From the NCBI GenBank assembly GCA_016188215.1, contig JACPIF010000006.1, positions 1 to 48,214 of the forward strand: 48,214 nucleotides of DNA, written 5' to 3'. Made by a program: the position numbers and the translations under genes. Below the pieces are notes generated by a model. It saw nothing but the letters and a program-made list of their open reading frames with translations, was not told where the DNA came from and ran no database searches. The stretch's first letter is position 1, and each line of letters opens with the position of its first letter. Source of the stretch: Candidatus Woesearchaeota archaeon (GTDB lineage Archaea; Nanobdellota; Nanobdellia; Woesearchaeales; JACPIF01). Shown in pieces: positions 10,004 to 48,214 of this stretch.

Positions 10004-10258
10004 GCCGTGCGCAGCACCTTTGGCACTCAGCCATTTATTTTTTATACCCTTAGGTTGGGCTATGCCTGCTTAAGTCTTTCTGAGGGTAAACTTTTATTGC
10101 ACGTTTTAGTTCTTTTCCCTTTTTCTTTTTCTCTCTTTTAGTCTAAACAGAAACTTATAACGAGGATTGCATCTGTTGTATCTGCTGTCTAATCGCTATG
10201 GGGTTCGTATGCTCTGCGCAGCGCGCACACCCAATTAACGCTGGACGCGGGTCTGCGA
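10004..10258. repeat. Dispersed noncoding element, copy A
   Basis: This intergenic stretch matches 26754-27044 in order along its length: both start GCCGTGCGCAGCAC, then TCATTTATTTTT or CCATTTATTTTT, CCCTTAGGTTG, CTTAAGTCTTTCTGA, a long pyrimidine tract, ATTGCATCTGTTGTATC, and CTGGACGCGGGTCTGCG at the end. No long open frame is shared. It may be a noncoding RNA gene or a non-autonomous mobile element. It ends about 75 bases before tRNA-Tyr. Confidence 0.7.
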
Positions 10259-10333: not shown

Positions 10334-10462
10334 CCCCGCTTAGCTCAATCGCAGAGCGCGTGGCTGTAGCTTTAGAGCGCTTACTGACGTTGCATTTTTG
10401 CATAGAATGAGGATAAGTCAGCCGAGACCACGAGGTTGCTGGTTCAAATCCGGCAGCGGGGA
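10334..10462 (+). tRNA. tRNA-Tyr(GTA) with anticodon-loop intron
   Basis: Acceptor CCCCGCT/AGCGGGG with A73, giving the C1-G72 pair typical of archaeal tRNA-Tyr. D stem AGCTC/GAGC, anticodon stem CGTGG/CCACG, T arm GCTGG-TTCAAAT-CCGGC. Removing about 57 bases (10370-10426, plus or minus one because of a repeated G) leaves the loop CTGTAGA, the expected Tyr loop. The intron is at the usual 37/38 site and has CTGAC/GTCAG and TGCA/TGCA helices. A TTTATAAAT box lies at about 10292-10300. Confidence 0.92.
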
Positions 10463-11258: not shown

Positions 11259-12125
11259 ATGAATGCCAGGCCTTCGCACATTGAGATATCAAATCCCCGC
11301 AAAATTCTCTTCCCAATCTCAAGGATCACCAAGCAGGAATTCGTTGAATACCACCAGAAGATAGCAGAGTACATGCTGCCGCACCTGAAAGACAGGCCCA
11401 TCTCCATGTACCGGTTTCCTGACGGAATCGGCAAGAAAATATTCTTTCAGAAAAATGCGCCTGCGTATTTTCCAAAATGGATCAAGACAAAAAAGATTGC
11501 GCATGAGAAGGCGTCAACAAATTATGTCATCTGCAATGATGCAGAGACATTGCTTTATCTTGCAAACCAGGTCATCACGCCGCACGTATGGCTAAGCAGG
11601 ATTGACAAGCTTGAATATCCTGACAGGATAATCTTTGACCTGGACCCTCAGGAAGGTACCGGCTTTGCGGATATATGCAAGGCTGCCAGGCTGCTCAGGA
11701 AAGCGCTTGACGAAATAAACCTGCTAAGCTTTCCAATGAGCACCGGAAGCAGGGGGCTGCATGTTGTTGTTCCGATAACCCGGGAATTCACCTTCAAGAA
11801 AGCATCTGCATTTGCAAGAGTGCTGGCAAGCCATGTTGTTGATGCTGATCCAGATAAATTTACTGCGGAGCAGAGGATAGCGAAGCGCGGCAGCAAGGTC
11901 TTCATTGACACTTACAGGATAGGGTTTGCTCAAACTGCGGTCGCCCTTTATGCAGTCAGGGACAGAGAAGGAGCGCCTGTTGCAGCTCCGCTTGCATGGA
12001 ATGAAGTGAAGCCGGGATTTGATCCGCAGCAGTTTACCATAAGAAATATATTTGCAAGGCTGAAAAAGAAGGGGGATGTGTGGAAAGGTCTCTTTAAGAT
12101 TAAGCAGTCACTAAAGGATATTTAA
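11259..12125 (+). CDS. LigD-type DNA/RNA polymerase (PrimPol, stand-alone PolDom)
   Basis: 288 residues matching the polymerase domain of bacterial LigD over its whole length: ISNPRKILFP near the start, RFPDGIGKKIFFQKNAP, the metal-binding IIFDLDPQEG (Asp-x-Asp), the nucleotide-binding MSTGSRGLHVVVP and a late FIDTYRIGFAQTAVALYAVR. In NHEJ this archaeo-eukaryotic primase-fold enzyme fills gaps with ribonucleotides next to Ku and a ligase. Here it stands alone, as in archaeal and some bacterial split systems; no Ku or ligase is in the window. It is convergent with and overlaps the last gene of the five-gene operon by 4 bases. Confidence 0.92.
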   Translation: MNARPSHIEISNPRKILFPISRITKQEFVEYHQKIAEYMLPHLKDRPISMYRFPDGIGKKIFFQKNAPAYFPKWIKTKKIAHEKASTNYVICNDAETLLYLANQVITPHVWLSRIDKLEYPDRIIFDLDPQEGTGFADICKAARLLRKALDEINLLSFPMSTGSRGLHVVVPITREFTFKKASAFARVLASHVVDADPDKFTAEQRIAKRGSKVFIDTYRIGFAQTAVALYAVRDREGAPVAAPLAWNEVKPGFDPQQFTIRNIFARLKKKGDVWKGLFKIKQSLKDI

Positions 12126-13231
12126 TGTGCTCTCATAAACTCCCTAACTTCTGAAATCTTAGAATCATAAAAATTTACTTTATCTCTATACTGCCCCATT
12201 GAGTTTTCTAGGGACTTAATCTTCGGTTCTATTTCTCGAATCTTGGCTTTTAAACTGATAGAGTCTAATCCAGTAAATAATGTAATCATTCCGAAAAAAA
12301 GGGTAAAAGGTGCAAAAGGTGTTAGCAGCATGGCCCCATTAATCGCACCAGTACCAATTGCATCTTTTTTGGCTTTTTGATATTTAGGATATATAGTATT
12401 CCATTGCCTTAATAATTCATTATACTGTCTTTCAAAATCAGCCAAACCACTTCTGTAAGAACTTCTCTCCCTTTCATATATTTGTAAATTATTATTGCAA
12501 GCCAATGTAACTAATTGTGGATGCAGAGCACGCTTCATTTCACTTTCAAGCGGTATTGTCCCTCCTTGTCTTATTGCTGCTGCAACATCTTGGAAAACAT
12601 TTGCCTCCACTATGACTCTCAGCAAATCATGGGTATTAGAAAATTTATAGTAATCCTGTAAGTTTCTTGAACTGGTAATAGTACCACCATGCCTAACAGC
12701 TCCTACATCTCTAATAGTGCCTCTAACATTTATTGTACCGCCTCTCATAAAGGGACCAACTACTCCTTTACAATCTCCTTCAACAACGAGCTTTCCATCT
12801 TCCATCATATAAGCTGTATTATCTCCCAAACTTCCTTTTACAGTTACTTTTCTATTTAATCTGTATCCAAAGTAATCCAGTGACACTCCTTTTACTATTT
12901 CTAAGGTGATGGGTTCCTCAAGCTCCCTGACAGCATTAACCAATGCAGAGGCAAATATTCCTAAGATTCTTGGCCGTAACGCTACATTTCTTGCGCAGAA
13001 ATCTGATATATCCTGGGCCTGTGGAACAACAGTTAATTCCTTCACAGCAGAAACAGCTCTTTGATATTGCCTTTCAATACTTTCAAGATCCAATTTACCG
13101 CAGGCTTCTATTAGTCTGTCTTGAACATATTGTCTGTGCTGCTCAGGCGTAACTCTTTCCTTTTTTTTGCCGTTTCGGTCCAGTAGTTCTTTTTCGGCTT
13201 CAGGGTTGTTAAGTACATCTTCAATTCTCAT
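12122..13231 (-). CDS. GXGXG/beta-helix membrane protein, paralogue 2 (unknown system)
   Basis: 369 residues. A conserved N-terminal motif (IEDVLNNPEAEKELLDRN, then VTPEQHRQYVQDRL) and a helical region lead to a short beta-helix (about 135-200): VKGSLGDNTAYMMEDGKLVV, then PFMRGGTINVRGTI and RHGGTI. This repeat resembles the GXGXG domain of glutamate synthase and formylmethanofuran dehydrogenase subunit C. A coiled coil, a hydrophobic hairpin (about 295-325, GAMLLTPFAPFTLFFGMITL) and a second coiled coil follow. It is paralogous to the gene at 13257. It is last in an operon with 25-base spacing and has no recognised function. Confidence 0.75.
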   Translation of the reverse strand: MRIEDVLNNPEAEKELLDRNGKKKERVTPEQHRQYVQDRLIEACGKLDLESIERQYQRAVSAVKELTVVPQAQDISDFCARNVALRPRILGIFASALVNAVRELEEPITLEIVKGVSLDYFGYRLNRKVTVKGSLGDNTAYMMEDGKLVVEGDCKGVVGPFMRGGTINVRGTIRDVGAVRHGGTITSSRNLQDYYKFSNTHDLLRVIVEANVFQDVAAAIRQGGTIPLESEMKRALHPQLVTLACNNNLQIYERERSSYRSGLADFERQYNELLRQWNTIYPKYQKAKKDAIGTGAINGAMLLTPFAPFTLFFGMITLFTGLDSISLKAKIREIEPKIKSLENSMGQYRDKVNFYDSKISEVREFMRAH

Positions 13232-13256
13232 TTTATTTTTCTAACCTGTTTTATTA

Positions 13257-14489
13257 TTATCTAATACCTAATTCAGACCTTGCAGCTTCAAGCTGCCGCC
13301 TCATTTCAGGATTGTGGACACCTGGCAGACTTAAATAGAATTCTAAATTATCAATAGCTGCCCTGTTATTATCATCTACCTTAGACGAGATATTACTTAG
13401 TTCACTCTCAACATCTTTAACTGCTCTTTCTTCTTCTTCTACAACTCTATCAACATTATTAGCAGTCTTTTTTGTCCTGTATAGAAAATAGGGCACTGTC
13501 ACAAATGCCAGTATAGGGATAGCCATTGTAATGCTAGCTGCAACTCCTGTCTCTGCCAAATATTGCCCTTTTTTTGACCACCTTTTGTCCCTGTACTCCT
13601 CCTCCAAAGCTTGAGCTCTAGCTAGTAAACTTCTACCTTGCCTTTCATATTCCTCTCCACGTCCTTGATATATTTCATGATTGTGCCTGCAGACTGGCTC
13701 TAATAACGCTGGATGCAGCATTTCTTTAAATTGTTGGTCAAGAAGAGCAGGCTCCCTACTTGTTAGTTCTCTATAAAGACGTGCTAATCTGTAATCATGT
13801 TGGTGTACTCTTAATAGTTCAATTAAATCATGTTTAGAAATCTCATCAGGCTCCATTGTTATTCCCCTATGAATGATTTTACCACCATACCTAATAATTC
13901 CTACATGACCTATTGTGCCTCTCACATATACTGTGCCCCCTTTCATGTACATACCTACATTTGCTCCGCATCTTCCTTCAACAATTAACTTTCCCGCCTC
14001 CATGAACATCGCTGGAAAATCCCCCAAATTCCCCTGTACTACTACATCTTTTCCAAGTTTGTAACCAAAGCTGTCTACCAAGGGGGCATTTCTTAGATCA
14101 ACTATTAGTGGTGCCGCATCGGTATGGAACGCATTAATAAGAAAAGAAACAAAAAGCCCTATGCTATCTGTTTCTTCTAAAGTCCTAAATTCTTCAGTTG
14201 TACAGAATCTTGATAGGTCTTTACTTGAAGGAGCCACTGATAGATCTCTTACTACTTCCATTGCCTTAGCAGTAAACTTATCCATGAATCTTTCTATCTC
14301 AGTATAACCGCAATCATCACCCGGTTCAGGAATGCTAGAGAATATCTCGTCTAATTTAGCACCAGCTTCAAACAGTCTCTCCTGTACATACTTTTCGTGC
14401 TCTTCTTGGGTAACTCTTTGTTTGGGTTTACTTCTATTCCTAAGTTCCCGGTCTGCTTTTGCATTGTTTAAAATATCGTTGAGATCCAT
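13257..14489 (-). CDS. GXGXG/beta-helix membrane protein, paralogue 1 (unknown system)
   Basis: 410 residues with the same architecture as the gene at 12122. The start is LNDILNNAKADRELRNRS and VTQEEHEKYVQERL. The short beta-helix is VQGNLGDFPAMFMEAGKLIV, MYMKGGTVYVRGTI and RYGGKI. A long helical region follows, then a hydrophobic hairpin (about 320-345, VAASITMAIPILAFVTVPYF) and a coiled-coil tail. There are no catalytic residues of known GXGXG enzymes, so a structural or scaffold role is more likely than catalysis. The hairpin could insert in membrane with both coiled coils on one side. It is 16 bases downstream of the gene at 14506. Confidence 0.75.
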   Translation of the reverse strand: MDLNDILNNAKADRELRNRSKPKQRVTQEEHEKYVQERLFEAGAKLDEIFSSIPEPGDDCGYTEIERFMDKFTAKAMEVVRDLSVAPSSKDLSRFCTTEEFRTLEETDSIGLFVSFLINAFHTDAAPLIVDLRNAPLVDSFGYKLGKDVVVQGNLGDFPAMFMEAGKLIVEGRCGANVGMYMKGGTVYVRGTIGHVGIIRYGGKIIHRGITMEPDEISKHDLIELLRVHQHDYRLARLYRELTSREPALLDQQFKEMLHPALLEPVCRHNHEIYQGRGEEYERQGRSLLARAQALEEEYRDKRWSKKGQYLAETGVAASITMAIPILAFVTVPYFLYRTKKTANNVDRVVEEEERAVKDVESELSNISSKVDDNNRAAIDNLEFYLSLPGVHNPEMRRQLEAARSELGIR

Positions 14490-14505
14490 ATTGATGGTTT
14501 CTGTA

Positions 14506-15429
14506 TTATGACCCTCCTTTTGGGAATCCTTTTTTAAGTGTAACTCCTCCGAACCACCTCAAATAGTCAAGGTAAGCGGTATAGCGGCCTGTAGTTCTGC
14601 CGGGTGTCAAGCCCTGTTCAAATAGCTCAACTCTTTGCTGTTCTTCCTCGCCCAAGGGTCCGCCCATGCGCCGAAGCGTTGCTTCGAGACCCATGCGATA
14701 CGCAACTCCTCTTTCATGCTTATTAAATAATATTTTATAAAAAAACTCCAACTTATGCAAATTAGCAATGTATAATTCAAGCAGCTTATCGTCTATCCTG
14801 ACTATAGCGGTAGATCCCTGAATTCCATCCTGACGCAACGAAATCAAAGCTGTAACAGGCTCGCTCATCGATTGACTTTGAGATAAAACCACTCCTGTGG
14901 ACTGCGTATTTTCTTCACCACCATATCTCTGAACTAAAACCATAGCCTCCTGAAGAGCCTTAGGCCTGAGGGTAGCCTTCAATTCGTTCCTTCTTACTGG
15001 ATTGACTCTAGGGTCGAATTCCACTAAATCTTCGTATGCCTGGTAAAGCATCCTTGTCCAATCCTTTCCAGTGGCAAGTCTTCTAACTTCCAAATCCTGC
15101 TCTTCAACTAACTGGGCATGCTGCCTTCTTTTGTCTAAAGGGATCAACCCCCTAAGCTTTGATGGATCAAGGTCGTCCACGCCTGGCAGCTCTACTCCAT
15201 GATTTTGCCTAAGTAAATCTCTGGTCTGTATGATATATTCAGAAACACTTACTGAAGCCTGGACCTTATCCAAAAAACTCTTTCTTCTCCACTCTTGCAT
15301 TAAATTTTTTATCTCCCTTTCAAGGTTTTGAAAAACCTGGTTCGGCGGCTCATCCCGTTCTCTATAGCTATGATGACTTCTTTCATCATCTCCGAAAAAG
15401 GCTCCTTCAGCGCCGTATTCCCGCACCAT
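14506..15429 (-). CDS. Helical hypothetical protein of the five-gene operon
   Basis: 307 residues, mostly helical and charged, with an N-terminal low-complexity segment (GDDERSHHSYRERDEPP) and no signal or membrane segment. A central beta-containing part includes STAIVRIDDKLLELYI. The C-terminal third has YRMGLEATLRRMGGPLGEEE. I do not recognise a family. It sits between the Cys-domain proteins and the two beta-helix membrane paralogues with short spacings (8 bases after the upstream start region, 16 before the next gene), so it is probably a cytoplasmic partner in the same assembly. Confidence 0.7.
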   Translation of the reverse strand: MVREYGAEGAFFGDDERSHHSYRERDEPPNQVFQNLEREIKNLMQEWRRKSFLDKVQASVSVSEYIIQTRDLLRQNHGVELPGVDDLDPSKLRGLIPLDKRRQHAQLVEEQDLEVRRLATGKDWTRMLYQAYEDLVEFDPRVNPVRRNELKATLRPKALQEAMVLVQRYGGEENTQSTGVVLSQSQSMSEPVTALISLRQDGIQGSTAIVRIDDKLLELYIANLHKLEFFYKILFNKHERGVAYRMGLEATLRRMGGPLGEEEQQRVELFEQGLTPGRTTGRYTAYLDYLRWFGGVTLKKGFPKGGS

Positions 15430-15437
15430 TTTGTACC

Positions 15438-15707
15438 TTAAGTAAGCTTCACCTTCTCATTTGTCAAATATTGACACATTCCCACAACTCTGTTAGAAGG
15501 GCAACTTACTTGCCGTGTAGACGCAAACAAATGAGGAAGCATTTGCATTCTTCTAACTTGGTCCCCAACTGTACATGTTCCATATTTCCTTTCATCACGA
15601 ACTTCGTAATAGACTAAGACACATTGTCTAGGTCCTTGAGAAGAATAAACACAGTCCATCATTCTTGGGCCTTGACCACTAAGGTTTTCGTCTAATGTAT
15701 TACTCAT
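15438..15707 (-). CDS. Small five-Cys-domain protein
   Basis: 89 residues that are essentially one domain: MDCVYSSQGPRQCVLVYY, then YGTCTVGDQVRRMQMLPHLF, SCPSNRVVGMC and a terminal KVKLT. The same domain with all five Cys in register forms the C-terminus of the gene just upstream (15727). Five Cys with a conserved GTCTVGDQVRRMQ core may bind zinc or form disulfides. There is no signal peptide. Function unknown. It is a stand-alone copy of the domain, probably made by duplication within the operon. Confidence 0.7.
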   Translation of the reverse strand: MSNTLDENLSGQGPRMMDCVYSSQGPRQCVLVYYEVRDERKYGTCTVGDQVRRMQMLPHLFASTRQVSCPSNRVVGMCQYLTNEKVKLT

Positions 15708-15726
15708 TTTTACATCCTAAAATTGT

Positions 15727-16434
15727 TTAACTCAGTTTAACTCTTTGGGCCAGATAGTACTCACATGGCCTTACGAATTTGTTTGATGGACAGCCTGCCT
15801 TTTCAAATGCTGTCGTAAACCATCTAGGCAGTATTTGCATTCTCCTAACCTGGTCTCCCACTGTGCATGTGCCATATCGGCCATCGTCAGTACTTTCAAC
15901 AATAATGCACTCTTTCGGGCCGCCCTTCTCCCGGTACCTGCAGTCCATTTTCTGCGTATGGCCTGCATAAACAACTATTTTAGGCTGGATCCCCGTTGGA
16001 GTTCCCACCATGCTTGTCTGAGTGTAAGGGCCTGATGCCGGAGGTAAGGCAGCCTGTCCAGGACCAGTCAGAGCTCTTAATTCTAAGTCACCCAACCGTT
16101 TATCCGCCTCATTCTGTTTTCCTATAACCCTTCCTAATGTGTTGTTTATGTCTCCAAATCTTTTATCCATGAGTTCAGCAAATCCCCTTAAAGTTTCTTG
16201 ATATGGCCTCATCACGTCTTCCATCATGGTCCGCGTCTTGCGCAATTGTTCTTCGTCTGCCTGTTCCTTTCTCCTATAAAGAAAATCTGCCATTGATTGT
16301 GCCCTATGCTCTTCATCCATAGAATCCCAATCACCATAATTTTGTCTAAAGTATGCCTTACCATCAGAACTAGTCATCCTCCATGCACGGTTTAATCTGC
16401 CAGTAAAGCCCTGGTCAGGATCGAGCCTATTCAT
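15727..16434 (-). CDS. Coiled-coil protein with C-terminal five-Cys domain, first gene of operon
   Basis: 235 residues. The N-terminal half is helical and charged with a coiled coil (about 65-125, MRPYQETLRGFAELMDKRFG). A Pro/Gly linker leads to a C-terminal domain (about 160-235): MDCRYREKGGPKECIIVE, YGTCTVGDQVRRMQILPRWF, GCPSNKFVRPC, KLS. It is paralogous to the 89-residue protein that follows after 19 bases. GGAGGT lies 5 bases before the ATG. Two tandem palindromes lie 30-55 bases upstream, suggesting repression at this promoter. Confidence 0.72.
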   Translation of the reverse strand: MNRLDPDQGFTGRLNRAWRMTSSDGKAYFRQNYGDWDSMDEEHRAQSMADFLYRRKEQADEEQLRKTRTMMEDVMRPYQETLRGFAELMDKRFGDINNTLGRVIGKQNEADKRLGDLELRALTGPGQAALPPASGPYTQTSMVGTPTGIQPKIVVYAGHTQKMDCRYREKGGPKECIIVESTDDGRYGTCTVGDQVRRMQILPRWFTTAFEKAGCPSNKFVRPCEYYLAQRVKLS

Positions 16435-16874: not shown

Positions 16875-17114
16875 GCCCTGGTAGTCTAGTGGCCTAGGAT
16901 GGGGCCCTGTCGTACAGGTGCGTACATCACCTGGCACTGTGAGCGACTTTCGCTTCGCTACAGTCCCTCGTGCTCACTACGTTCGCAACCTGCATAGAAA
17001 GGCTCCGACCCGGGTTCAAAACAGATGATAAGCCATCTGGAGGCTTGAGCGACTTTCGCTTCGCTTCAGTCCCTCGGATATATGTTTATCTCTATGAAAG
17101 TCCCGGCCAGGGCG
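16875..17114 (+). tRNA. tRNA-Asp(GTC) with anticodon-loop and T-loop introns
   Basis: Acceptor GCCCTGG (16875-16881) pairs with CCAGGGC (17107-17113), G73 at 17114. D stem GTCT/GGAT, anticodon stem GGGCC/GGCTC, loop CTGTCG-A. Intron 1 is 16913-16999 (87 nt, 37/38): BHB helix CTGT/ATAG, bulges CGT and AAA, inner helix CAGGTGCG with CGCAACCTG. Intron 2 is 17021-17100 (80 nt, 59/60): helix TTCA/TGAA, bulges AAA and AGT, outer helix the T stem CCGGG/CCCGG. Splicing restores the loop TTCAAAT. Introns in the T loop are rare outside some Crenarchaeota. Confidence 0.93.
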
Positions 17115-17124
17115 TTTTTTCCTT

Positions 17125-17311
17125 GGGCCGGTAGCTCAGCCTGGATTCAGAGGGCAATAGAGCATCTGACTTTTACTGGCTTAGGCCAGAAGAGATCAGG
17201 TGGTCAAGGGTTCGAAACAGATGATAAGCCATCTGGAGGCTTGGGCGATTTCGCTTCGCTCAATCCCCCGGAAACGATGTTAATCGTCTGGCGAAAGTCC
17301 CTTCCGGCCCG
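17125..17311 (+). tRNA. tRNA-Lys(TTT) with two or three introns
   Basis: Acceptor GGGCCGG/CCGGCCC, G73 at 17311. Anticodon stem TCTGA/TCAGG. Intron 17176-17194 (19 nt, 37/38): helix CTTT/GAAG, bulges TAC and AGA, inner stem TGGC/GCCA. Intron 17217-17297 (81 nt, 59/60): helix TTCG/CGAA, bulges AAA and AGT, inner helix CAGATGA/TCGTCTG, outer T stem AAGGG/CCCTT. A 13-nt D-loop insertion (17145-17157) also fits a relaxed BHB: helix GCCT/GGGC, bulges GGA and AAT. Removing it restores CAGCCTGGTAGAGC. The gene starts 10 bases after tRNA-Asp and shares its promoter. Confidence 0.92.
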
Positions 17312-23645: not shown

Positions 23646-24791
23646 ATGGATGATATCATACAAGAATACGAGGAGAAATTGCCGCAGCGGCTGATAGATT
23701 TGGCAGTTGAGAAGCTTGGCAAGACAAGCCAGAAGAAGTTGAGGGAAGCGCTTGACAGGGTTGTTGAGGAATATGATGCTTCATGCATTGACCCGGGAGA
23801 ATCAGTAGGCTTGGTCAGCGCGGAATCCATCGGCGAGCCCGGGACGCAAATGACGTTGAACACATTCCATTTCGCAGGGGTTGCGGAGATGAATGTCACT
23901 ATGGGGCTGCCCAGGATAATTGAGATCCTTGACGGAAGGAAAGAATTAAGCACACCAATGATGGAGATATACCTCAAGAAGCCCTTTAACCAGGGGAAGA
24001 ATATCAAGGAAAATGCGCTATTGATAAAAGAGACCCTGTTCGGGGATCTGGTGCAGGAATTCCAGATAAATATTGCTGAGTCTGCCATTGAAGTCACGCT
24101 TGACCTGAAGAAGATGGAAGCTCTGGGGATGAGCAAGGCAAAGCTCATGAACCTCTTGTCTAAAGGAATCAAAGGGGTTAATTTGAAGGAGCACAAGGAA
24201 AAGAATATGCTTATCCTGAAGCCACGGGGCAAGGTTGAGGAATTGAATGACCTTTATAGGCTGAAGGAGAAAATGAAAGGCGTTTATCTCTCTGGCATTA
24301 AAGGCATAGAGCTGGTGCTGCCTGTCAAGCAGGGCGATGAGTTTGTCATCAGGACAAAGGGCACTAACCTTAAGGATGTGCTTGAATTGGATTTTGTTGA
24401 TGAGACTAGGACCAGCACTAATGACGTATTTGAGATTGCAGATGTACTGGGCATAGAAGCTGCGCGGCAGAGCATAATAAATGAAGTGCTGAACGTCATG
24501 GAGGCGCAGGGGCTGAATGTTGACCTAAGGCATATCATGCTTGTCGCAGACACCATGTGCGTCACTGGGCAGATACGCGGCATTACGAGGTATGGAGTAG
24601 TGAGCGAGAAGGCTTCAGTGCTGGCCAGGGCCAGCTTTGAGACGCCTATAAAGCACATTATCAATGCTTCATTGACTGGAGAGGTTGACAATCTGAATTC
24701 AGTTGTGGAGAATGTCATGCTGAACCAGCCGGTGCCGATAGGTACAGGACTGCCGCAATTGCGGGTAAAGGCAAAGAAAGAGAGCAAATAG
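23646..24791 (+). CDS. rpoA2: DNA-directed RNA polymerase subunit A''
   Basis: 381 residues, the C-terminal third of the largest subunit: trigger loop region [20 protein letters not shown], then [20 protein letters not shown], the jaw, and the conserved end [20 protein letters not shown] with [14 protein letters not shown]. It completes A'. The next 170 bases contain no gene but a structured RNA with its own TATA box. Confidence 0.97.
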
Positions 24792-24819
24792 TTTATATCC
24801 ATTATCAAACTTAAAATTT

Positions 24820-24926
24820 GCAAGTGGTCGGTGACATAAATGTCACCTCCTGGTGTGCGAGTGAGTCCCCGAATAGCAGTCTTACTTCAGGTTCGGGGAC
24901 ATATATTGCCAGCGCGACCAGTTACA
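24820..24926 (+). ncRNA. Structured RNA, copy E (family with copies at 40565 and 48046)
   Basis: Closing stem TGGTCG (24825-24830) with CGACCA (24915-24920), hairpin GTGACA-TAAA-TGTCAC (24831-24846), CTGG (24850-24853) with CCAG (24909-24912), and a perfect 9-bp stem GTCCCCGAA/TTCGGGGAC (24865-24900). TTTATAT at about 24792-24798 is spaced for a start near 24820. The core GTCGGTGA-N8-TCACCTCC and the GTCC stem recur on the minus strand at 40645-40565 and 48127-48046. An ACA follows the closing stem (24924-24926), as in H/ACA RNAs, but the hairpin in the expected guide pocket does not fit. It may be a leader element of L30e or a separate RNA. Confidence 0.75.
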
Positions 24927-24962
24927 GATTGATAAAGTCACTATAAATCATCATATTACAAA

Positions 24963-25244
24963 ATGGCAACACAGACAGAAAAGGCATTGGATGAGATAAG
25001 GAAACTGCTCAAGACCAAGAAGCTGGTCATTGGCACTGAGAGGACCCTTAAGGGGCTCCGTGCAGGGAAGGTTGCCAGGGTGTTCTATGCAGCGAACTGC
25101 GCTGCACCGGTGAAGAGCGATATAATGCATTTCAGCAAGCTGACTGCGGTTGAGCCCGTAGAGCTTGAGGTGGACAACCGCGAGCTGGGAGTGATGTGCA
25201 AGAAGCCGTTCTCTATTTCTGTGCTCAGCATTGCAAAGGACTAA
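24963..25244 (+). CDS. rpl30e: Ribosomal protein L30e
   Basis: 93 residues, the L7Ae/L30e fold: KLVIGTERTLKGLRAGKVAR, then VFYAANCAAPVKSDIMHFSK and GVMCKKPFSISVLSI. In archaea this gene commonly lies between rpoA2 and nusA, as here. L30e binds kink-turn RNA in the large subunit and, in yeast, its own transcript. A structured RNA lies just upstream, but I do not see a clear kink-turn in it. The stop overlaps the nusA ATG (TAATG). Confidence 0.96.
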   Translation: MATQTEKALDEIRKLLKTKKLVIGTERTLKGLRAGKVARVFYAANCAAPVKSDIMHFSKLTAVEPVELEVDNRELGVMCKKPFSISVLSIAKD

Positions 25245-26753: not shown

Positions 26754-27044
26754 GCCGTGCGCAGCACTCGTACTCGGTCATTTATTTTTGATTCCCTTTA
26801 GGTTGTGCCAAAATTAGCTTAGTCTTTCTGAAGTTAAACTTGTATTCCTCGTTTAGTTTCTTTTCTTCCTGCCTGTTTCGTCCTGATTAGTTTTTCCTTT
26901 TTCTTTTGTTTTCTTTTCCTGTCTTTTTACTCTAAAGGAACTAGAAAATAGCATTGTGCATGTTATATCAGCTGTCTTATTGCTGTAGGTCTCTTTTGCC
27001 TCTGTGAGACGCATAGAACTCAGAGCGCTGGACGCGAGCCTGCG
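26754..27044. repeat. Dispersed noncoding element, copy B
   Basis: It corresponds to 10004-10258: starts GCCGTGCGCAGCAC, then TCATTTATTTTT, CCCTTTAGGTTG, CTTAGTCTTTCTGAAGTTAA, a pyrimidine-rich tract, CATGTTATATCAGCTGTCT, ending CTGGACGCGAGCCTGCG. It fills the gap between the converging rps7 and pilin-like genes. It is 36 bases longer than copy A, mostly in the pyrimidine tract. Confidence 0.7.
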
Positions 27045-27784: not shown

Positions 27785-29268
27785 GGAAGGTATTTCTTTA
27801 TGAGAGGATGATTGGGCGGCAGAACAGTTACCTTAGAGCCGGCTTTCTGGCTCACCACATTATCCCTGATAGTTGTATCAAAATCAGAATAATTTGTTGT
27901 GTACGTGTATACAAGATTGTCGCTCATCTCAGAGAGAGGAAGCTGGAAATTTGTCTTGAGGAAGCGGTGCATTGAATTATTGACCTGCCTCTCATATAGG
28001 GTGTGATATCTGCTTGCAAATGTCCGGGATATCTCAGGATGCTGTTGAGTGTAGGAAATCCTGAGCTGGGGAATAAAGATGAAGCCTGCATCTAATGTGA
28101 AGGATGCAGATGCGTTTGGCAGGCTGATATGAAAGAGCTGAAGGCTGCTGCTTACTACCGAAGAGCCCTTTATATGGTGCCTCAAGTATGAAACGAATCC
28201 ATGCATCTCTATTTTCTTGCTCACGAAATCAATTATTGCGCACTGGTTGCAGTTATTGTCATGCTTTTCCACCCAGTCTTTTCTGGTGCAAACTTTGAAC
28301 TGGGAAGAATTTTGGGGGATGGAAATGGCAAAATCCCTTCTTGTATCCTCAAAAGAATAGAAGGCGTAGGTGCTTAAAGGCATTAAAAATGCACAAATAA
28401 AGCCGAGAGACGGATTAAGGTAGACAGACGCATTGGTTGCGGTCTGGACAGTTTCAGTAAATGCGCCGTAGGGACCTTCAATGCCTGAGAAGCTTAAGGA
28501 GCCGTTGCTCAGGTTGTAGTATGCCGGTATTGTCTTTGTAATGACTAATGAGCTGCCTTCAGTTGCATTAAATGATGTGTGTGCAAATGACTTGTCTGTT
28601 ATGTTTATCTCATAGTCGCCATCAAAGCTTATCTGGATATCCTGCTGCTTCACCTTTACTGTGGCATTCTTCAGATCCCTCAAGGTGATGCTGTCGCTCA
28701 TCAAAGAGTCTGCCTTGCCTAAAAAGAAAGTTTGCGAGCCTGCATTAAGGTCTTCTACATTCGTTGTGATTGAGCCATCTTTAATCACAGAATCTGCGTG
28801 CTCTGCCGTCAAATTACCTTGCTTGTATTTGACGTTTACGCCATTATTAATTATAGTCTGTTGAACATTTAAGTAATCTAAATTACTAAAATAAAAGCTG
28901 TCTTGCTCAAACTCGGCATTATTATTTTCATCTCCAACATTTATGTCTAATTCCTGGATATTATATTTCTTCTTTAATGCCTTTGCAAGCTTCTGCTGGT
29001 TAAGTTCATCAAAACGCCAGTCAGGAATACTATCAAAATAAATGTAAATTTGATCTGATGTCATGCCACTTAAATCAACTGTTTCCCAGTTAGTATTTGC
29101 ATCTATAGGTGTGCCAGGACCTTCTCCACCTGAACCTGGGATAGTGGGTAAACTGTCTCCTGGCGAAATGGGGGTCTGAGGTCCCTCTACTGTGTCAGGA
29201 GCACTCACAGTATTAACAAAAAATACAAAGAGTAAAAGGTAAATAGCTACTTTAGATAGTTTTGCCAA
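27781..29268 (-). CDS. Full-length adhesin-like surface protein of the cassette array
   Basis: 495 residues beginning at a TTG (29268) with a signal peptide (VAIYLLLFVFFVNTVSA). A module shared with the proteins at 29883 and 31195 follows (about 85-240): LDINVGDENNNAEFEQDSFY, TIINNGVNVKYKQGNLTAEH, ADSVIKDGSITTNVEDLNAG, SITLRDLKNATVKV, INITDKSFAHT. The C-terminal half (about 240-495) is unique and contains KDWVEKHDNNCNQCAIIDF. It has no membrane anchor but is coupled to the pilin-like membrane protein. The periodic beta pattern suggests a beta-solenoid or jelly-roll repeat. Confidence 0.65.
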   Translation of the reverse strand: MAKLSKVAIYLLLFVFFVNTVSAPDTVEGPQTPISPGDSLPTIPGSGGEGPGTPIDANTNWETVDLSGMTSDQIYIYFDSIPDWRFDELNQQKLAKALKKKYNIQELDINVGDENNNAEFEQDSFYFSNLDYLNVQQTIINNGVNVKYKQGNLTAEHADSVIKDGSITTNVEDLNAGSQTFFLGKADSLMSDSITLRDLKNATVKVKQQDIQISFDGDYEINITDKSFAHTSFNATEGSSLVITKTIPAYYNLSNGSLSFSGIEGPYGAFTETVQTATNASVYLNPSLGFICAFLMPLSTYAFYSFEDTRRDFAISIPQNSSQFKVCTRKDWVEKHDNNCNQCAIIDFVSKKIEMHGFVSYLRHHIKGSSVVSSSLQLFHISLPNASASFTLDAGFIFIPQLRISYTQQHPEISRTFASRYHTLYERQVNNSMHRFLKTNFQLPLSEMSDNLVYTYTTNYSDFDTTIRDNVVSQKAGSKVTVLPPNHPLIKKYLP

Positions 29269-29306
29269 GTTAAAGATTTATATATGATAAGACTATTTAA
29301 TATTTA

Positions 29307-29831
29307 TCAAAAAGCATTGACTTTTGTAAAAGTAGCTTCGCTTATGGGAATTATGTAAGCGCCTTTTGATGGTCCTTTAAATCCTATAGATATATAACCT
29401 TCTGGAAATACAAAGACATAATCTATCTGTCCCTTCAATCTTTGATTCAATCTTAGAAATCTATCAAAATCAATTTTAGGATCAGTTTTAAAAATATTTT
29501 GGAAATTTCCAAAGTTTGGTCTAGTAAAGAAATATTCTTCCCATTCACCAGGTCTATATCGCAGAAACGTTTGCCTTGACATAAATTCCTGCGTTGGAGG
29601 AATTAGTCTGGCATTAGGATAAATGTCATCCTTTGGCGTAGCTCTTTCATAAACTTGATCTATACAGATATTATATTGCCTACCTTTATATTCGCAAGGT
29701 CCAAAGTCTCTTGTTGAAGGGGAAGCGTTCTGCGCATATGCAGGATTTACTGCTTTATCTATTGTAACTGGCATTACAGCCGCAGCAATTCCACCCACAA
29801 GTGCCACTAGGCCTTCTAAAGCTTTGTTCAT
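29307..29831 (-). CDS. Secreted protein of the cassette array, unknown fold
   Basis: 174 residues with an N-terminal hydrophobic signal ending NPAYAQ, the same AYAQ cleavage context as the two thioredoxin-like proteins of the array. The mature protein has a two-Cys N-terminus (GPCEYKGRQYNICIDQ) and a beta-rich end (YVFVFPEGYISIGFKGPSKG). Its promoter GAAAGATTTAAATA is identical to those of the other two cassettes. It occupies the position that thioredoxin-like genes hold in the other cassettes. Function unknown. Confidence 0.65.
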   Translation of the reverse strand: MNKALEGLVALVGGIAAAVMPVTIDKAVNPAYAQNASPSTRDFGPCEYKGRQYNICIDQVYERATPKDDIYPNARLIPPTQEFMSRQTFLRYRPGEWEEYFFTRPNFGNFQNIFKTDPKIDFDRFLRLNQRLKGQIDYVFVFPEGYISIGFKGPSKGAYIIPISEATFTKVNAF

Positions 29832-29856
29832 AGTAATGCTTAATTATACCTTAGAC

Positions 29857-29870
29857 TATTTAAATCTTTC
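29857..29870 (-). promoter_or_regulatory. Cassette promoter 1
   Basis: GAAAGATTTAAATA on the minus strand, 26 bases before the ATG at 29831. The same 14 bases precede the first gene of each cassette (see 31168 and 32500). It combines a purine-rich BRE-like part with a TATA box. Confidence 0.7.
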
Positions 29871-29882
29871 CCTTTTTAACCA

Positions 29883-30599
29883 CTAAAGAGTTACAAAAAG
29901 AGTATAATTAGGGGTGTGTGCAAATGATTTGTCAGTTATGTTAATTATGTAGCTGTCAGATGCAAAGATTTCGACCTTTTGGTTGTCTATTTTAAATGTG
30001 GAATTTTTTATGTTTCTTATGGTGATGCTGTTTGTCATTAAATAATCTGCCTGGCCAAGGAAAAAGAATAGTGCTCCAGCATTTAAATCATCCACGTTAG
30101 TTGAGATGGAGCCATCCTTAATGACAGAATCTGCGTGCTCTGCAGTCAGGTTGCCCTGCTTGAACTTTACATTTATGCCGTTGTTTATTACCGTAGTGCC
30201 AATCCCCAGATACTGAGCACTATCGAAAAAGAAGCTGTCTGATTCGAATTCAGCATTATTCGTATTGCTTCCTAGATCAATATTAACATTTTCCAGGCTA
30301 TACTTCTTCTCTAGTGCTTCCTCAAGTTCGTCATCATCCAACTCATCAAATCTATTAGTGGGAATGTTATCAAAGAATTTTAGGATTTGCTCTGAGTTCA
30401 TCTCCCAGACTGGTGAGGTTTCCCAGTTCCAGTTAGGAGAATTAATAACGTCTTCTGGAATGCCCGGGCCAGAAGTTGTACCCTCTATTCCTGATCCTGG
30501 CGTAACATCAAAACCATTTTGAGCTAATGCAAATCCTATAACAAGGATAAGCAGATGTAAATAAATCAATAATACCTTAAGGTATGCTTCTTTTAGCAT
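29883..30599 (-). CDS. Short adhesin-like paralogue
   Basis: 238 residues, signal peptide (VLLIYLHLLILVIGFALA) and the shared module: VNIDLGSNTNNAEFESDSFF, TVINNGINVKFKQGNLTAEH, ADSVIKDGSISTNVDDLNAG, SITIRNIKNSTFKIDNQKVE, ending INITDKSFAHT plus nine residues. It stops where the 495-residue protein goes on, so it lacks the C-terminal half. A TATA-like CTTATATAAG lies about 25 bases before the ATG. The last 40 codons are nearly identical in DNA to those of the 31195 gene, suggesting duplication or gene conversion. Confidence 0.65.
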   Translation of the reverse strand: MLKEAYLKVLLIYLHLLILVIGFALAQNGFDVTPGSGIEGTTSGPGIPEDVINSPNWNWETSPVWEMNSEQILKFFDNIPTNRFDELDDDELEEALEKKYSLENVNIDLGSNTNNAEFESDSFFFDSAQYLGIGTTVINNGINVKFKQGNLTAEHADSVIKDGSISTNVDDLNAGALFFFLGQADYLMTNSITIRNIKNSTFKIDNQKVEIFASDSYIINITDKSFAHTPNYTLFVTL

Positions 30600-30637
30600 T
30601 GCTTAAATTTTAATAATTCAGCTTATATAAGTTTCTA

Positions 30638-31138
30638 TTACAAAGTTGATAGATGTCTTACATTATTATTGATCTGAGCTCTTATCCTATTAAATTCAGT
30701 ATCACTTGTGGGACCACCATAATGGCTTGCAAGTCTTCTTCCATTCTTGAAATATATCACTGATGGATATTCAGCAAACCCAAATTTCTGAATTGCTTCT
30801 TCGGCTGTTAAATCGCCGCTTAATGCTCTGTATACTAAGAATTTCATGTCCCTTAATTCCTCTCTATTTGAGATTTCTGCCAAAATTTGGGCTAGGCGGC
30901 CACTGGGTGAATTTGGATTGGGTCCCTCGCTATAATACAATAATACACTTTTCCCCTCTGCTATTTGGGCATCAAGTGTAGATTTGTTTATTTTAATAAA
31001 GCGCCCTCCTGAAATTACATCTTCTACTGATCTAATTGAAGCACTTTGCGCATACGCTGGTGAAAAAGCTGCAGCTAAGGCTGTCAGCCCTATAGCGCCC
31101 GCTCCTGCCCCAAGTAGTTGCCTTCTGCTGTAGTCCAT
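30638..31138 (-). CDS. Tat-exported thioredoxin-fold protein lacking CxxC
   Basis: 166 residues. The twin-arginine signal SRRQLLGAGAGAIGLTALAA ends SPAYAQ. A thioredoxin-like fold follows: KSVLLYYSEGPNPNSPSGRL (where CxxC normally sits), then KFLVYRALSGD, FGFAEYPSVIYFKNGRRLAS with the cis-Pro. Both redox Cys are missing, so disulfide chemistry is unlikely; it may be a binding or chaperone-like domain. First gene of its cassette, with the repeated GAAAGATTTAAATA promoter 30 bases before the ATG. Confidence 0.75.
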   Translation of the reverse strand: MDYSRRQLLGAGAGAIGLTALAAAFSPAYAQSASIRSVEDVISGGRFIKINKSTLDAQIAEGKSVLLYYSEGPNPNSPSGRLAQILAEISNREELRDMKFLVYRALSGDLTAEEAIQKFGFAEYPSVIYFKNGRRLASHYGGPTSDTEFNRIRAQINNNVRHLSTL

Positions 31139-31167
31139 ATTGCCCCTTTTGTTCTTTGTTTTACTAG

Positions 31168-31181
31168 TATTTAAATCTTTC
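31168..31181 (-). promoter_or_regulatory. Cassette promoter 2
   Basis: GAAAGATTTAAATA on the minus strand, 30 bases before the ATG of the Tat thioredoxin-like gene. The flanking TTAAAAAAGGAAAG is also shared with cassette promoter 1. Confidence 0.7.
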
Positions 31182-31194
31182 CTTTTTTAACCAC

Positions 31195-31878
31195 TTAATA
31201 GTTACAAATGGGTAATTGAGGGCATTGGGCAGATGACTTGTCAGTTATGTTAATTATGTAATTATCAGATGCAAAGATTTCAACCTTTTGGTTGTCTATC
31301 TTAAATGTGGAATTTTTTATGTTTTTTATGGTGATGCTGTCTGTCATCAAGTAATCAGCTTCTCCTATGAAATACTCATCTTTTCCTGCATCAAGGAAAT
31401 CCACGTTTGCAGAGATGGCATCGCCTTTTATGACTGAATCTGCATAGTCTGCTTGGACTCTCCCATTGCTATATCTCACATTTTGGCCATTATTGATAAT
31501 AGTGGTACTGTAATCTGCTGTGGGGGTTATCTCTAAATAATCAACATCATCAAAGTAAAAGCTGTCATCCTCTATTTCTACAGTATTTACCTGGTTGCCT
31601 ACCTTGATTTCTACATCATTGAGGTTGTATTTCTTCTTTATGGCCCTGCCCAGAAGGATTTGGTCAAGCTCATCGAAGCGGAAGGATGGGATGCTTTGGA
31701 AGTTTGCTTCTATTTGAAATTCGTTTAGTGTACCGACATTGTCTGCCTGAAAATCGAATTTTTCTGGAACTGCTCCTTCTGGTTCGGTATATGCCACTCC
31801 TCCCGGGGGTGGTTCTGCACTGACTAAATTAAATGCAGAAAATAGTAGCACAATAAAAAGGAATAGCTTTAGCTGCAT
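31195..31878 (-). CDS. Short adhesin-like paralogue
   Basis: 227 residues with a signal peptide (LFLFIVLLFSAFNLVSA) and the shared module: VEIKVGNQVNTVEIEDDSFY, TTIINNGQNVRYSNGRVQAD, YADSVIKGDAISANVDFLDA, SITIKNIKNSTFKIDNQKVE, ending INITDKSSAQ and a short tail. It is truncated at the same point as the 29883 paralogue and shares its 3' DNA. TTTATATTTATAAA lies about 17-30 bases before the ATG. Third copy in the array. Confidence 0.65.
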   Translation of the reverse strand: MQLKLFLFIVLLFSAFNLVSAEPPPGGVAYTEPEGAVPEKFDFQADNVGTLNEFQIEANFQSIPSFRFDELDQILLGRAIKKKYNLNDVEIKVGNQVNTVEIEDDSFYFDDVDYLEITPTADYSTTIINNGQNVRYSNGRVQADYADSVIKGDAISANVDFLDAGKDEYFIGEADYLMTDSITIKNIKNSTFKIDNQKVEIFASDNYIINITDKSSAQCPQLPICNY

Positions 31879-39495: not shown

Positions 39496-40407
39496 TTAAG
39501 TCCTGATATACAGCTTCTTTTCTTGGCTGAATGAGGCTATGCCCTTGCCGATGTAGAAGAACTTCTCGTTCATGGTGTCTGAAAAGGCATCAAAAAATGA
39601 CCTGTGCTTCTTGTATTCGACTGCTGAGACTGACTGATTAAGCTGCTTCTCAAGGTATGCAAGCGCCTCATCCTTGCTGCCAACCTCATCTATTAATCCA
39701 AGCTCCAGGGCCTCGCTTCCCAGGAAGAATTCCCCGGTTGCAACCGCTTCTATCTGTGCTTTTGACATTTGCCGGTTTTCTGCAACCTCATTGATGAATT
39801 CCTGGTGGATAAGGTCAAGCTTGTACTGGAACTTTGCGCGCTCTTCCGGCGTCAGCTCCCTGAATGGGGTGCCTGCATCCTTATATTTGCCTGCAACCAG
39901 GCGCTCATAGGTTACATTGTAATAATCCATCAAGCCTGAGAAGTCAAGGTATGAAGCGATGACGCCGATTGAGCCGGTAATTGACATGCGGCTCGCAACA
40001 ATATGGTCAGTTGCAGAAGCTACCCAGTATGCTCCGGATGCGCCTGATTCCCTGATCCAGGCTACCTTCGGCTTATTTACCTTCTTCACTGCATTCGCAA
40101 CCTCTTCTGAAGCGACAGCGCTGCCTCCCGGTGAGTTTATCTCAAAGACTATGGCTTTTATAGAAGCGCTATCTTCTGCCTTTTCTATGAGCTCAATGAT
40201 GTCAGTTGAGGATACGACATCTGCAGCAAACAGGCTGAAATCCTCTTCAGTGACCAATTCCCCTTTAATTGGGATTATGGCAACATTGCCAGAGCCCTTG
40301 ACCTCAACATCTGAGCTTATGAAGAATGAAGCGATGCCTGCTATAACAAACGATATGAATGCAAGCACCACAATCAGGATGATTATGAAGAGCCAGGGGC
40401 GTTTCAT
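39496..40407 (-). CDS. sppA: Signal peptide peptidase SppA (S49)
   Basis: 303 residues. N-terminal membrane helix (LFIIILIVVLAFISFVIAGI), then the protease domain: VFEINSPGGSAVASEEVANA, the nucleophile Ser region RESGASGAYWVASATDHIVA, SITGSIGVIASYLDFSGL, and the general-base Lys in LVAGKYKDAGTPFRELTPEE. It is the short single-domain form that acts as a multimer, degrading cleaved signal peptides at the membrane. A copy of the structured RNA family lies on the same strand 158 bases upstream of the ATG. Confidence 0.95.
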   Translation of the reverse strand: MKRPWLFIIILIVVLAFISFVIAGIASFFISSDVEVKGSGNVAIIPIKGELVTEEDFSLFAADVVSSTDIIELIEKAEDSASIKAIVFEINSPGGSAVASEEVANAVKKVNKPKVAWIRESGASGAYWVASATDHIVASRMSITGSIGVIASYLDFSGLMDYYNVTYERLVAGKYKDAGTPFRELTPEERAKFQYKLDLIHQEFINEVAENRQMSKAQIEAVATGEFFLGSEALELGLIDEVGSKDEALAYLEKQLNQSVSAVEYKKHRSFFDAFSDTMNEKFFYIGKGIASFSQEKKLYIRT

Positions 40408-40509
40408 TGGGCTATGGCTTATTTGTTAGTATATATAGTTTTCTGATTGCATTTTTTGAATAGTTACTAATTTTCTTAATTTTTCACTTAACTTAACTAA
40501 ATTTACTTT

Positions 40510-40645
40510 GCACTCGCCTGCTGCGCGGACAGCGCTCGCCTGAGGCTCGCGCACTGTCCCAAAAGTCCCCCGATGTGCAGCAGACACGCGATTCGGGGGA
40601 CCAACGTCGCCCTGGAGGTGAGGTTCACCTCACCGACTACCTTGC
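40510..40645 (-). ncRNA. Structured RNA, copy C, in the sppA leader
   Basis: Reading the minus strand from 40645: GCAAGGTAGTCGGTGAGGT, hairpin GGTGAGGT-GA-ACCTCACC, TCCAGGG, then the perfect 9-bp stem GTCCCCCGA/TCGGGGGAC spelled on the plus strand at 40565-40573 and 40593-40601. Another stem GGACAG/CTGTCC (40527-40532 with 40554-40559) follows. The first 80 bases line up with copy E (24820) and copy D (48127). A palindromic CTTATAAA at 40690-40698 may drive both this RNA and aIF1A. Sequence 40408-40510 shows nothing else. Confidence 0.7.
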
Positions 40646-40719
40646 TCATTTTCAGTCCCTTCACTTTTCAATTTCTCATTTCCAAAAGCCTTATAAACTA
40701 AGCCAAGTTATTTTAAACC

Positions 40720-47975: not shown

Positions 47976-47994
47976 TTTATCCAACTGGACTAAC

Positions 47995-48127
47995 CTTGCA
48001 CCGCGCCGCGCGGTTTGCGCTCGGCAAGCTCGCGCCCTGTGCAATGTCCGCCATTTTTGATGCACATTGGTTGTTGGCGGACTCCCGTAACCCTGGAGCG
48101 AACATTTATGTGAGCGACTACTAATGC
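47995..48127 (-). ncRNA. Structured RNA, copy D, in the lspA leader
   Basis: Minus strand from 48127: GCATTAGTAGTCGCTCACAT, AAATGTTCGCTCCAGGG, then stem GTCCGCC/GGCGGAC (48046-48052 with 48076-48082 on the plus strand). It matches copy C in CTCCAGGG and spacing and copy E in ACATAAATGT. The TGTGCA/TGCACA pair and a GC-rich module (48018-48042), also found in copy C and in the HAD gene, follow. It lies 70 bases upstream of the LspA ATG on the same strand. Confidence 0.65.
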
Positions 48128-48214
48128 TCTTTAGTTTTTAGTCTTTTAATGTTTACTTGTTTTGATATGTTTTAGCTTTACTCTAATAAGAAATTACCAT
48201 CTTGGCCCGCGCTT
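48125..48214. repeat. Possible third copy of the dispersed element (partial)
   Basis: TTTTAGTCTTTTAATG, TTTACTTGTT, GTTTTAGCTTTACTCTAA occur in the same order as in elements A and B (TTAGTCTTTCTGAAG, AAACTTGTATT, TTTTTACTCTAA). The stretch is T-rich, so chance similarity is possible, and the window ends here. Confidence 0.3.

Follow-up and report, generated by a model that had tools for sequence, protein, structure and literature searches.

Copy E of a dispersed palindromic repeat lies on the plus strand between rpoA2 (stop at 24791) and rpl30e (start at 24963), in an rpoA2-L30e-NusA-like gene neighborhood, and occupies positions 24810 to 24938 of the window, i.e., the whole 48,214-nucleotide stretch of Candidatus Woesearchaeota archaeon DNA analyzed here. 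It consists of a 5' end resembling a terminal inverted repeat, a first hairpin, H1 (GGTGACAT/ATGTCACC, 24830 to 24847), a spacer, a second hairpin, H2 (GTCCCCGAA/TTCGGGGAC, 24865 to 24900, with a loop of 18 nt), and a 3' tail. Two related elements are located on the minus strand. Copy C (40495 to 40656), with the divergently oriented eIF1A gene and sppA on either side, contains H1 (GGTGAGGT/ACCTCACC, 40617 to 40634) and H2 (GTCCCCCGA/TCGGGGGAC, 40565 to 40601). Copy D (47985 to 48144) is found upstream of lspA; its H2 (GTCCGCCA/TGGCGGAC) spans 48046 to 48082, and its H1 (GCTCACAT/ATGTTCGC, 48098 to 48115) has two internal mismatches, a variant also present in several other copies. The three can be aligned over H1 (of the GGTGAC..GTCACC type), CTCC(A/T)GG, a short spacer, and the H2 stem GTCC...GGAC. 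A previous sequence-only reading had described these related hairpin sequences correctly, with GTCG at 24827 (E), 40637 (C), and 48118 (D), CTCC at 24847, 40617, and 48098, respectively, followed by TGG or AGG, and the GTCC...GGAC stem at 24865 to 24900 (plus), 40601 to 40565 (minus), and 48082 to 48046 (minus). The neighboring genes were also named correctly; their products belong to the L7Ae/L30e family, the S49 peptidases (SppA), and signal peptidase II (LspA).

The number of copies had been put at three, but the genome harbors about 62. The archaeal gene content and the small size of the genome would fit the DPANN affiliation implied by the sequence-only reading. A covariance model built from eleven copies, from which nested inserts had been removed by hand, detected 62 loci in the 1.11-Mb genome after merging of overlapping matches, namely, 57 with an E value of <0.01 and 5 weaker ones recognized by eye; BLAST searches with copy E against its own genome had several diverged copies as their result. 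The size of this family, about one copy per 18 kb, is far beyond chance. Copies of roughly 110 to 250 bp are distributed over 10 of the 13 contigs (the remaining three total about 29 kb), at distances from 1.2 kb to tens of kilobases, and some are situated amid housekeeping operons. A further remnant, at C1:65031, comprises only the end sequences, the module H4, and a nested insert.

Each copy is a mosaic of the hairpin modules H1, H2, H3, and sometimes H4, flanked by ends of the type ACTAAnATTTGCA...TGCAAATnTTAGT that are loosely conserved. The consensus starts with ACTAAAATGAGCA or ACTAAnATTTGCAA, often followed by GTAGTCG and then H1; the piece joining H1 to H2 is CTCCGTGGYGACG, CACGGTGCGAGTGA, or ACTGTGAACA, and H2 is followed by ATATTG, TTTTGGCACAG, CGCCCCATGGTGGG, or TGTTCACAG. 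H3 reads GCGCGCATTTCGCGC or GCGCGAG..CGAGCGC, H4 of some copies reads CCGCGC..GCGCGG, and the consensus ends with TGCAAATTAGT. Identical joining pieces and the variants of H1 and of H3/H4 occur in varying combinations among copies, i.e., exchangeable palindromic modules are combined in intergenic DNA as in BIMEs. An insert with two hairpins and a length of about 51 bp occupies differing positions in different copies, and other two-hairpin inserts lie within the loops of H1, H2, or H3; such nested inserts are present in many copies and missing at the equivalent place in others. In about eight copies, H2 has the opposite orientation to its flanking sequences, and the whole copies C2:86159 and C4:51621 are reversed with respect to the strand chosen by the model.

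The loop of H2 is variable, measures 15 to 24 nt in most copies, and has a positional consensus of roughly AACnGCAAGnTTACAGCnnGAAT. A conserved stem with a variable loop would suit separate small RNAs, trans-acting or functioning as mRNA-processing or stability hairpins, that were spread by duplication and use the H2 loop for target binding. The co-orientation of the copies with genes would agree with such a role, and copy E folds much better than its shuffled versions (z = -4.5), as does, to a lesser extent, copy C (z = -2.6). However, copy D folds no better than its shuffles (z = -0.2), the consensus of the loop looks inherited rather than target specific, and the loop occurs in both directions among the copies. 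A TATA box of its own had been ascribed to copy E, but this assignment is weak, since the TTTATA in question lies immediately behind the rpoA2 stop codon and a consistent upstream TATA is lacking in the family. Small RNAs are therefore a very unlikely explanation.

The preservation of pairing between differing stems had been taken as an argument for selection on structure, and the compensatory pairs themselves are real. Pairing is found in 93.9% of the cells of the alignment, both sides are changed in 189 cells against 7 with a change on one side only, and the covariation score is 0.479 versus 0.133 after shuffling. Further homologues with compensatory pairs, whose absence was to count as a refutation, are numerous, all of them within the same genome. 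The conclusion that RNA is under selection is undercut by scarce G-U pairs and a near lack of strand asymmetry. In a selected RNA, G-U should be tolerated on the RNA's own strand, but A-C should not. The model-based alignment contains 8 G-U and 6 A-C among 934 cells; an independent helix count, which penalizes both mismatches equally and hence runs low on G-U for the repeats, yielded 17 G-T and 7 A-C among 1,182 stem pairs, and the model-based count, which is independent of this penalty, agrees with it. Among 124 pairs in six tRNAs of the same genome, which served as a control, 11 were G-U and none was A-C (Fisher P = 2e-5 for the comparison with the helix count); the G-U share is 8.9% in these tRNAs, compared with 0.9% in the repeats. 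Because G-U is almost absent despite strong covariation, the symmetry of the palindromes seems to be kept mainly at the DNA level. Near-perfect, nearly strand-symmetric palindromes with flipped cores fit better with DNA palindrome correction and exchange between copies than with RNA selection; the slightly higher number of G-T than of A-C in the helix count (P = 0.06) makes some role as RNA conceivable. To take strong covariation of repeats in a single genome as proof of RNA selection is a common error, since palindrome correction on DNA and module exchange can give the same signal, and a comparison of G-U and A-C mismatches helps to distinguish between the two.

All 62 copies lie outside the genes called by a codon-usage gene caller. 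In gaps between tandem genes, 35 of 43 copies face the downstream gene and 8 point in the opposite direction (P = 4e-5; 36 to 7 once one reversed copy is corrected). Thirteen copies are located in divergent and three in convergent gaps, whereas convergent gaps account for 14 of 69 element-free gaps. The copies accordingly favor the 5' sides of genes and face them. This bias toward the downstream gene, which is not expected for a neutral insert, is the most interesting and an unexplained feature of the family, and it represents a testable puzzle. A further reading, which we regard as unlikely, is that the repeats have been co-opted throughout the genome, in dozens of unrelated operons, as an oriented signal at 5' ends or between cistrons that would serve mRNA processing, stability, or insulation; the modular hairpins would be selected as structures and refreshed at the DNA level by gene conversion and palindrome correction.

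The sequence-only reading had also proposed a riboswitch-like leader, i.e., a cis-acting RNA of the riboswitch or ribosomal-protein type in the 5' untranslated region that controls the downstream gene. The mostly co-stranded downstream genes (the 35 tandem and 13 divergent copies), the rarity of convergent copies relative to element-free gaps, and the strong covariation would all be in line with it. The genes downstream are, however, functionally unrelated, comprising those for L30e, SppA, and LspA and, directly behind copy C2:134041, a tRNA-Val. In a motif scan of the 49 co-oriented copies, moreover, about 20 were separated from the start codon by a TATA-like box, so that these copies are probably not part of the leader of the gene that they face. 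The same arrangement was recognized by eye ahead of sppA, where ACTATATATAC, about 30 bases before the start codon, received no score in the scan. This TATA-like box (40430 to 40438, minus strand) lies between copy C and the start codon at 40407, and its position corresponds to the usual archaeal promoter spacing; copy C is therefore probably located upstream of the sppA promoter and outside the sppA leader. The scarcity of G-U without significant strand asymmetry, a variable and sometimes reversed H2 loop instead of a conserved single-stranded core, and the restriction to one among the genomes searched also speak against a leader. An RNA leader was thus rejected as the main reading and is hardly probable, and the designation of the family as a structured RNA is likewise unsupported, on the same grounds and in view of the flipped H2 hairpins.

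The spacer between rpoA2 and rpl30e that contains copy E measures 171 bp, compared with a median of about 4 bp in 29 relatives that have both genes, which supports an insertion of E at this site. In 25 of these relatives the spacer does not exceed 44 bp, and the remaining 4 have long spacers of other sequence without the element. The rpoA2-rpl30e spacer of one relative (L133 in genome G038) carries a different perfect palindrome, TTCGATTTCCGCTTAT...ATAAGCGGAAATCGAA; to judge from this sequence, other lineages may carry palindromic inserts of their own.

Dispersal, nested inserts, and the split rpoA2-rpl30e spacer point to past mobility of the family, in agreement with the mobile structured repeat that had been listed as one of three options and is the one favored by the data. 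The Y1 transposase family (PF01797) had no match in the genome while controls were positive, with the reservation that the genome is 91% complete and the gene could be missing, and the TnpB type (PF07282) had no match in the genome either; an IS200/IS605 or TnpB mobilizer was rejected since neither family was found. The genome encodes three Xer-like tyrosine recombinases, two of them close to NCBI's XerA/integron-integrase model. They were dismissed as mobilizers because they are unlinked to the repeats, none of the three genes having an adjoining copy. Palindromic multihairpin sites between genes with an orientation bias are reminiscent of integron attC sites, and folded recombination sites of this type, used by a tyrosine recombinase, were accordingly considered. 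Nevertheless, this explanation is extremely unlikely: the copies are 1.2 kb to tens of kilobases apart, partly in housekeeping operons, and form no cassette array; the only candidates are the Xer-like recombinases without adjoining copies, and no integron integrase was identified; matches to the integron-integrase model were split, as if the extra region were missing, and below the cutoff, with only the catalytic part scored. A target site duplication was not detected (observed value of 5.74 versus 5.84 after permutation). The outer ends share a common consensus, but their pairing within an element is no better than that between elements, and an element-specific outer stem, P0, that was convincing by eye was discarded since it did no better than permuted pairs; true terminal inverted repeats are hence unproven. 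An empty site was not seen among the comparison genomes, which include no relatives at the genus or family level.

The family is apparently restricted to its own genome among the genomes searched. It was absent from 371 genomes of the phylum, with the twelve best candidates per genome scored, and 60 genomes of the same order, among them no relative at the genus or family level, yielded one marginal match of the kind expected by chance. This match (L044, G050:C2:5968), a GTCCGCC...GGCGGAC hairpin resembling H2 in the genome of another family, had an E value of 0.007 over the 60 genomes and was not accepted as a member. A scan with the H1 pattern did not recover the family from a collection of 84,980 species and viral contigs; single pattern matches in Sphingomonas and Burkholderiales were taken as chance, and phage and plasmid collections were likewise free of the family. 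Five further genomes of the order, of which stretches were compared, shared no hairpin words and had no clear excess of long hairpins, in a weak test whose measure flags little even in the window. The window copies had no Rfam match at the gathering score, copy E none at a permissive threshold either, and twelve loci carrying other copies none at all. The check that had been suggested, a covariance model together with Rfam, thus resulted in many copies from the same genome and no known family, and the description of the family as new holds as far as tested, an earlier description not having been found.

Taken together, the elements are in all likelihood a lineage-specific, high-copy, non-coding, mosaic palindromic repeat of the general BIME/REP/ERIC kind in intergenic DNA. 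REPs and BIMEs share with them the many extragenic palindromic copies, the mosaic of modules, lineage specificity, and the lack of coding capacity. In contrast to REPs of 20 to 40 bp, the unit in this archaeon has 110 to 250 bp with three to four hairpins, and no RAYT (Y1 transposase) was found in the genome. REPs are classically located 3' of genes, whereas the present copies are common in divergent and rare in convergent gaps. ERIC/IRU, RUP, BOX, and Correia-type repeats and bacterial MITEs, with sizes of about 100 to 200 bp, are similarly intergenic, palindromic, dispersed, and equipped with nested insertions or internal modules. However, no sequence relationship to them was found in the searched collections, the present family is archaeal, and it differs from MITEs in having no provable terminal inverted repeat and no target site duplication. 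GTAG, the tag of one REP superfamily (PMC3733652), precedes the first hairpin in several copies, but many are without it. RepRanger predicted REPs, palindromic and intergenic as the present repeats are, in archaea (PMC12306157). This survey calls generic stem-loops per genome, does not mention DPANN, and apparently describes no multimodule family of the present kind (PMC12306157).

Such a repeat would have spread via transposition or replicative copying, with a driving factor that is unfound or since lost. The symmetry of its arms may be maintained by recombination between copies, and one arm could template the other during hairpin extrusion in single-stranded DNA; maintenance at the DNA level would explain why some hairpins are flipped and why G-U is scarce. 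Copies within operons presumably end up in the transcript, where they would form stable hairpins as a secondary effect. The family would represent a well-documented mosaic palindromic repeat that occurs about once per 18 kb in a tiny archaeal genome without a recognized transposase of the families searched (Y1 and TnpB types).

Other features were observed in the window. Another dispersed repeat, about 105 bp long (76 to 81% identity) and non-coding on inspection, is present on the plus strand at 10010 to 10120 and 26760 to 26865, just 3' of plus-strand genes, and ends in T-rich DNA; with more copies at C2:209183 and C4:144002 and a fragment at C2:139177, it is perhaps a structured element of the 3' untranslated region or terminator type. 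A tRNA at 10334 to 10462 (plus strand) was found by Rfam and missed by ARAGORN at default settings, and its span of 129 bases suggests an intron. Five consecutive open reading frames on the minus strand (12122 to 16434) were not recognized by the codon-usage gene caller trained on this genome; three of four tested had no Pfam match and one had a weak GXGXG match, and the region is possibly a recently acquired island. Just upstream of the rpo operon, positions 16930 to 17300 contain the tandem-like repeats GGGTTC(A/G)AAACAGATGATAAGCCATCTGGAGGCTTG(A/G)GCGA and CTTTCGCTTCGCT(T/A)CAGTCCCTCG, whose sole relative in the genome is a stretch of 42 bp at C13:25532. Finally, three diverged repeats in a row at 28573 to 31499 (minus strand), which are spaced by about 1.3 kb and have promoter-like TATTTAAATCTTTCC boxes in common, are probably paralogous genes.
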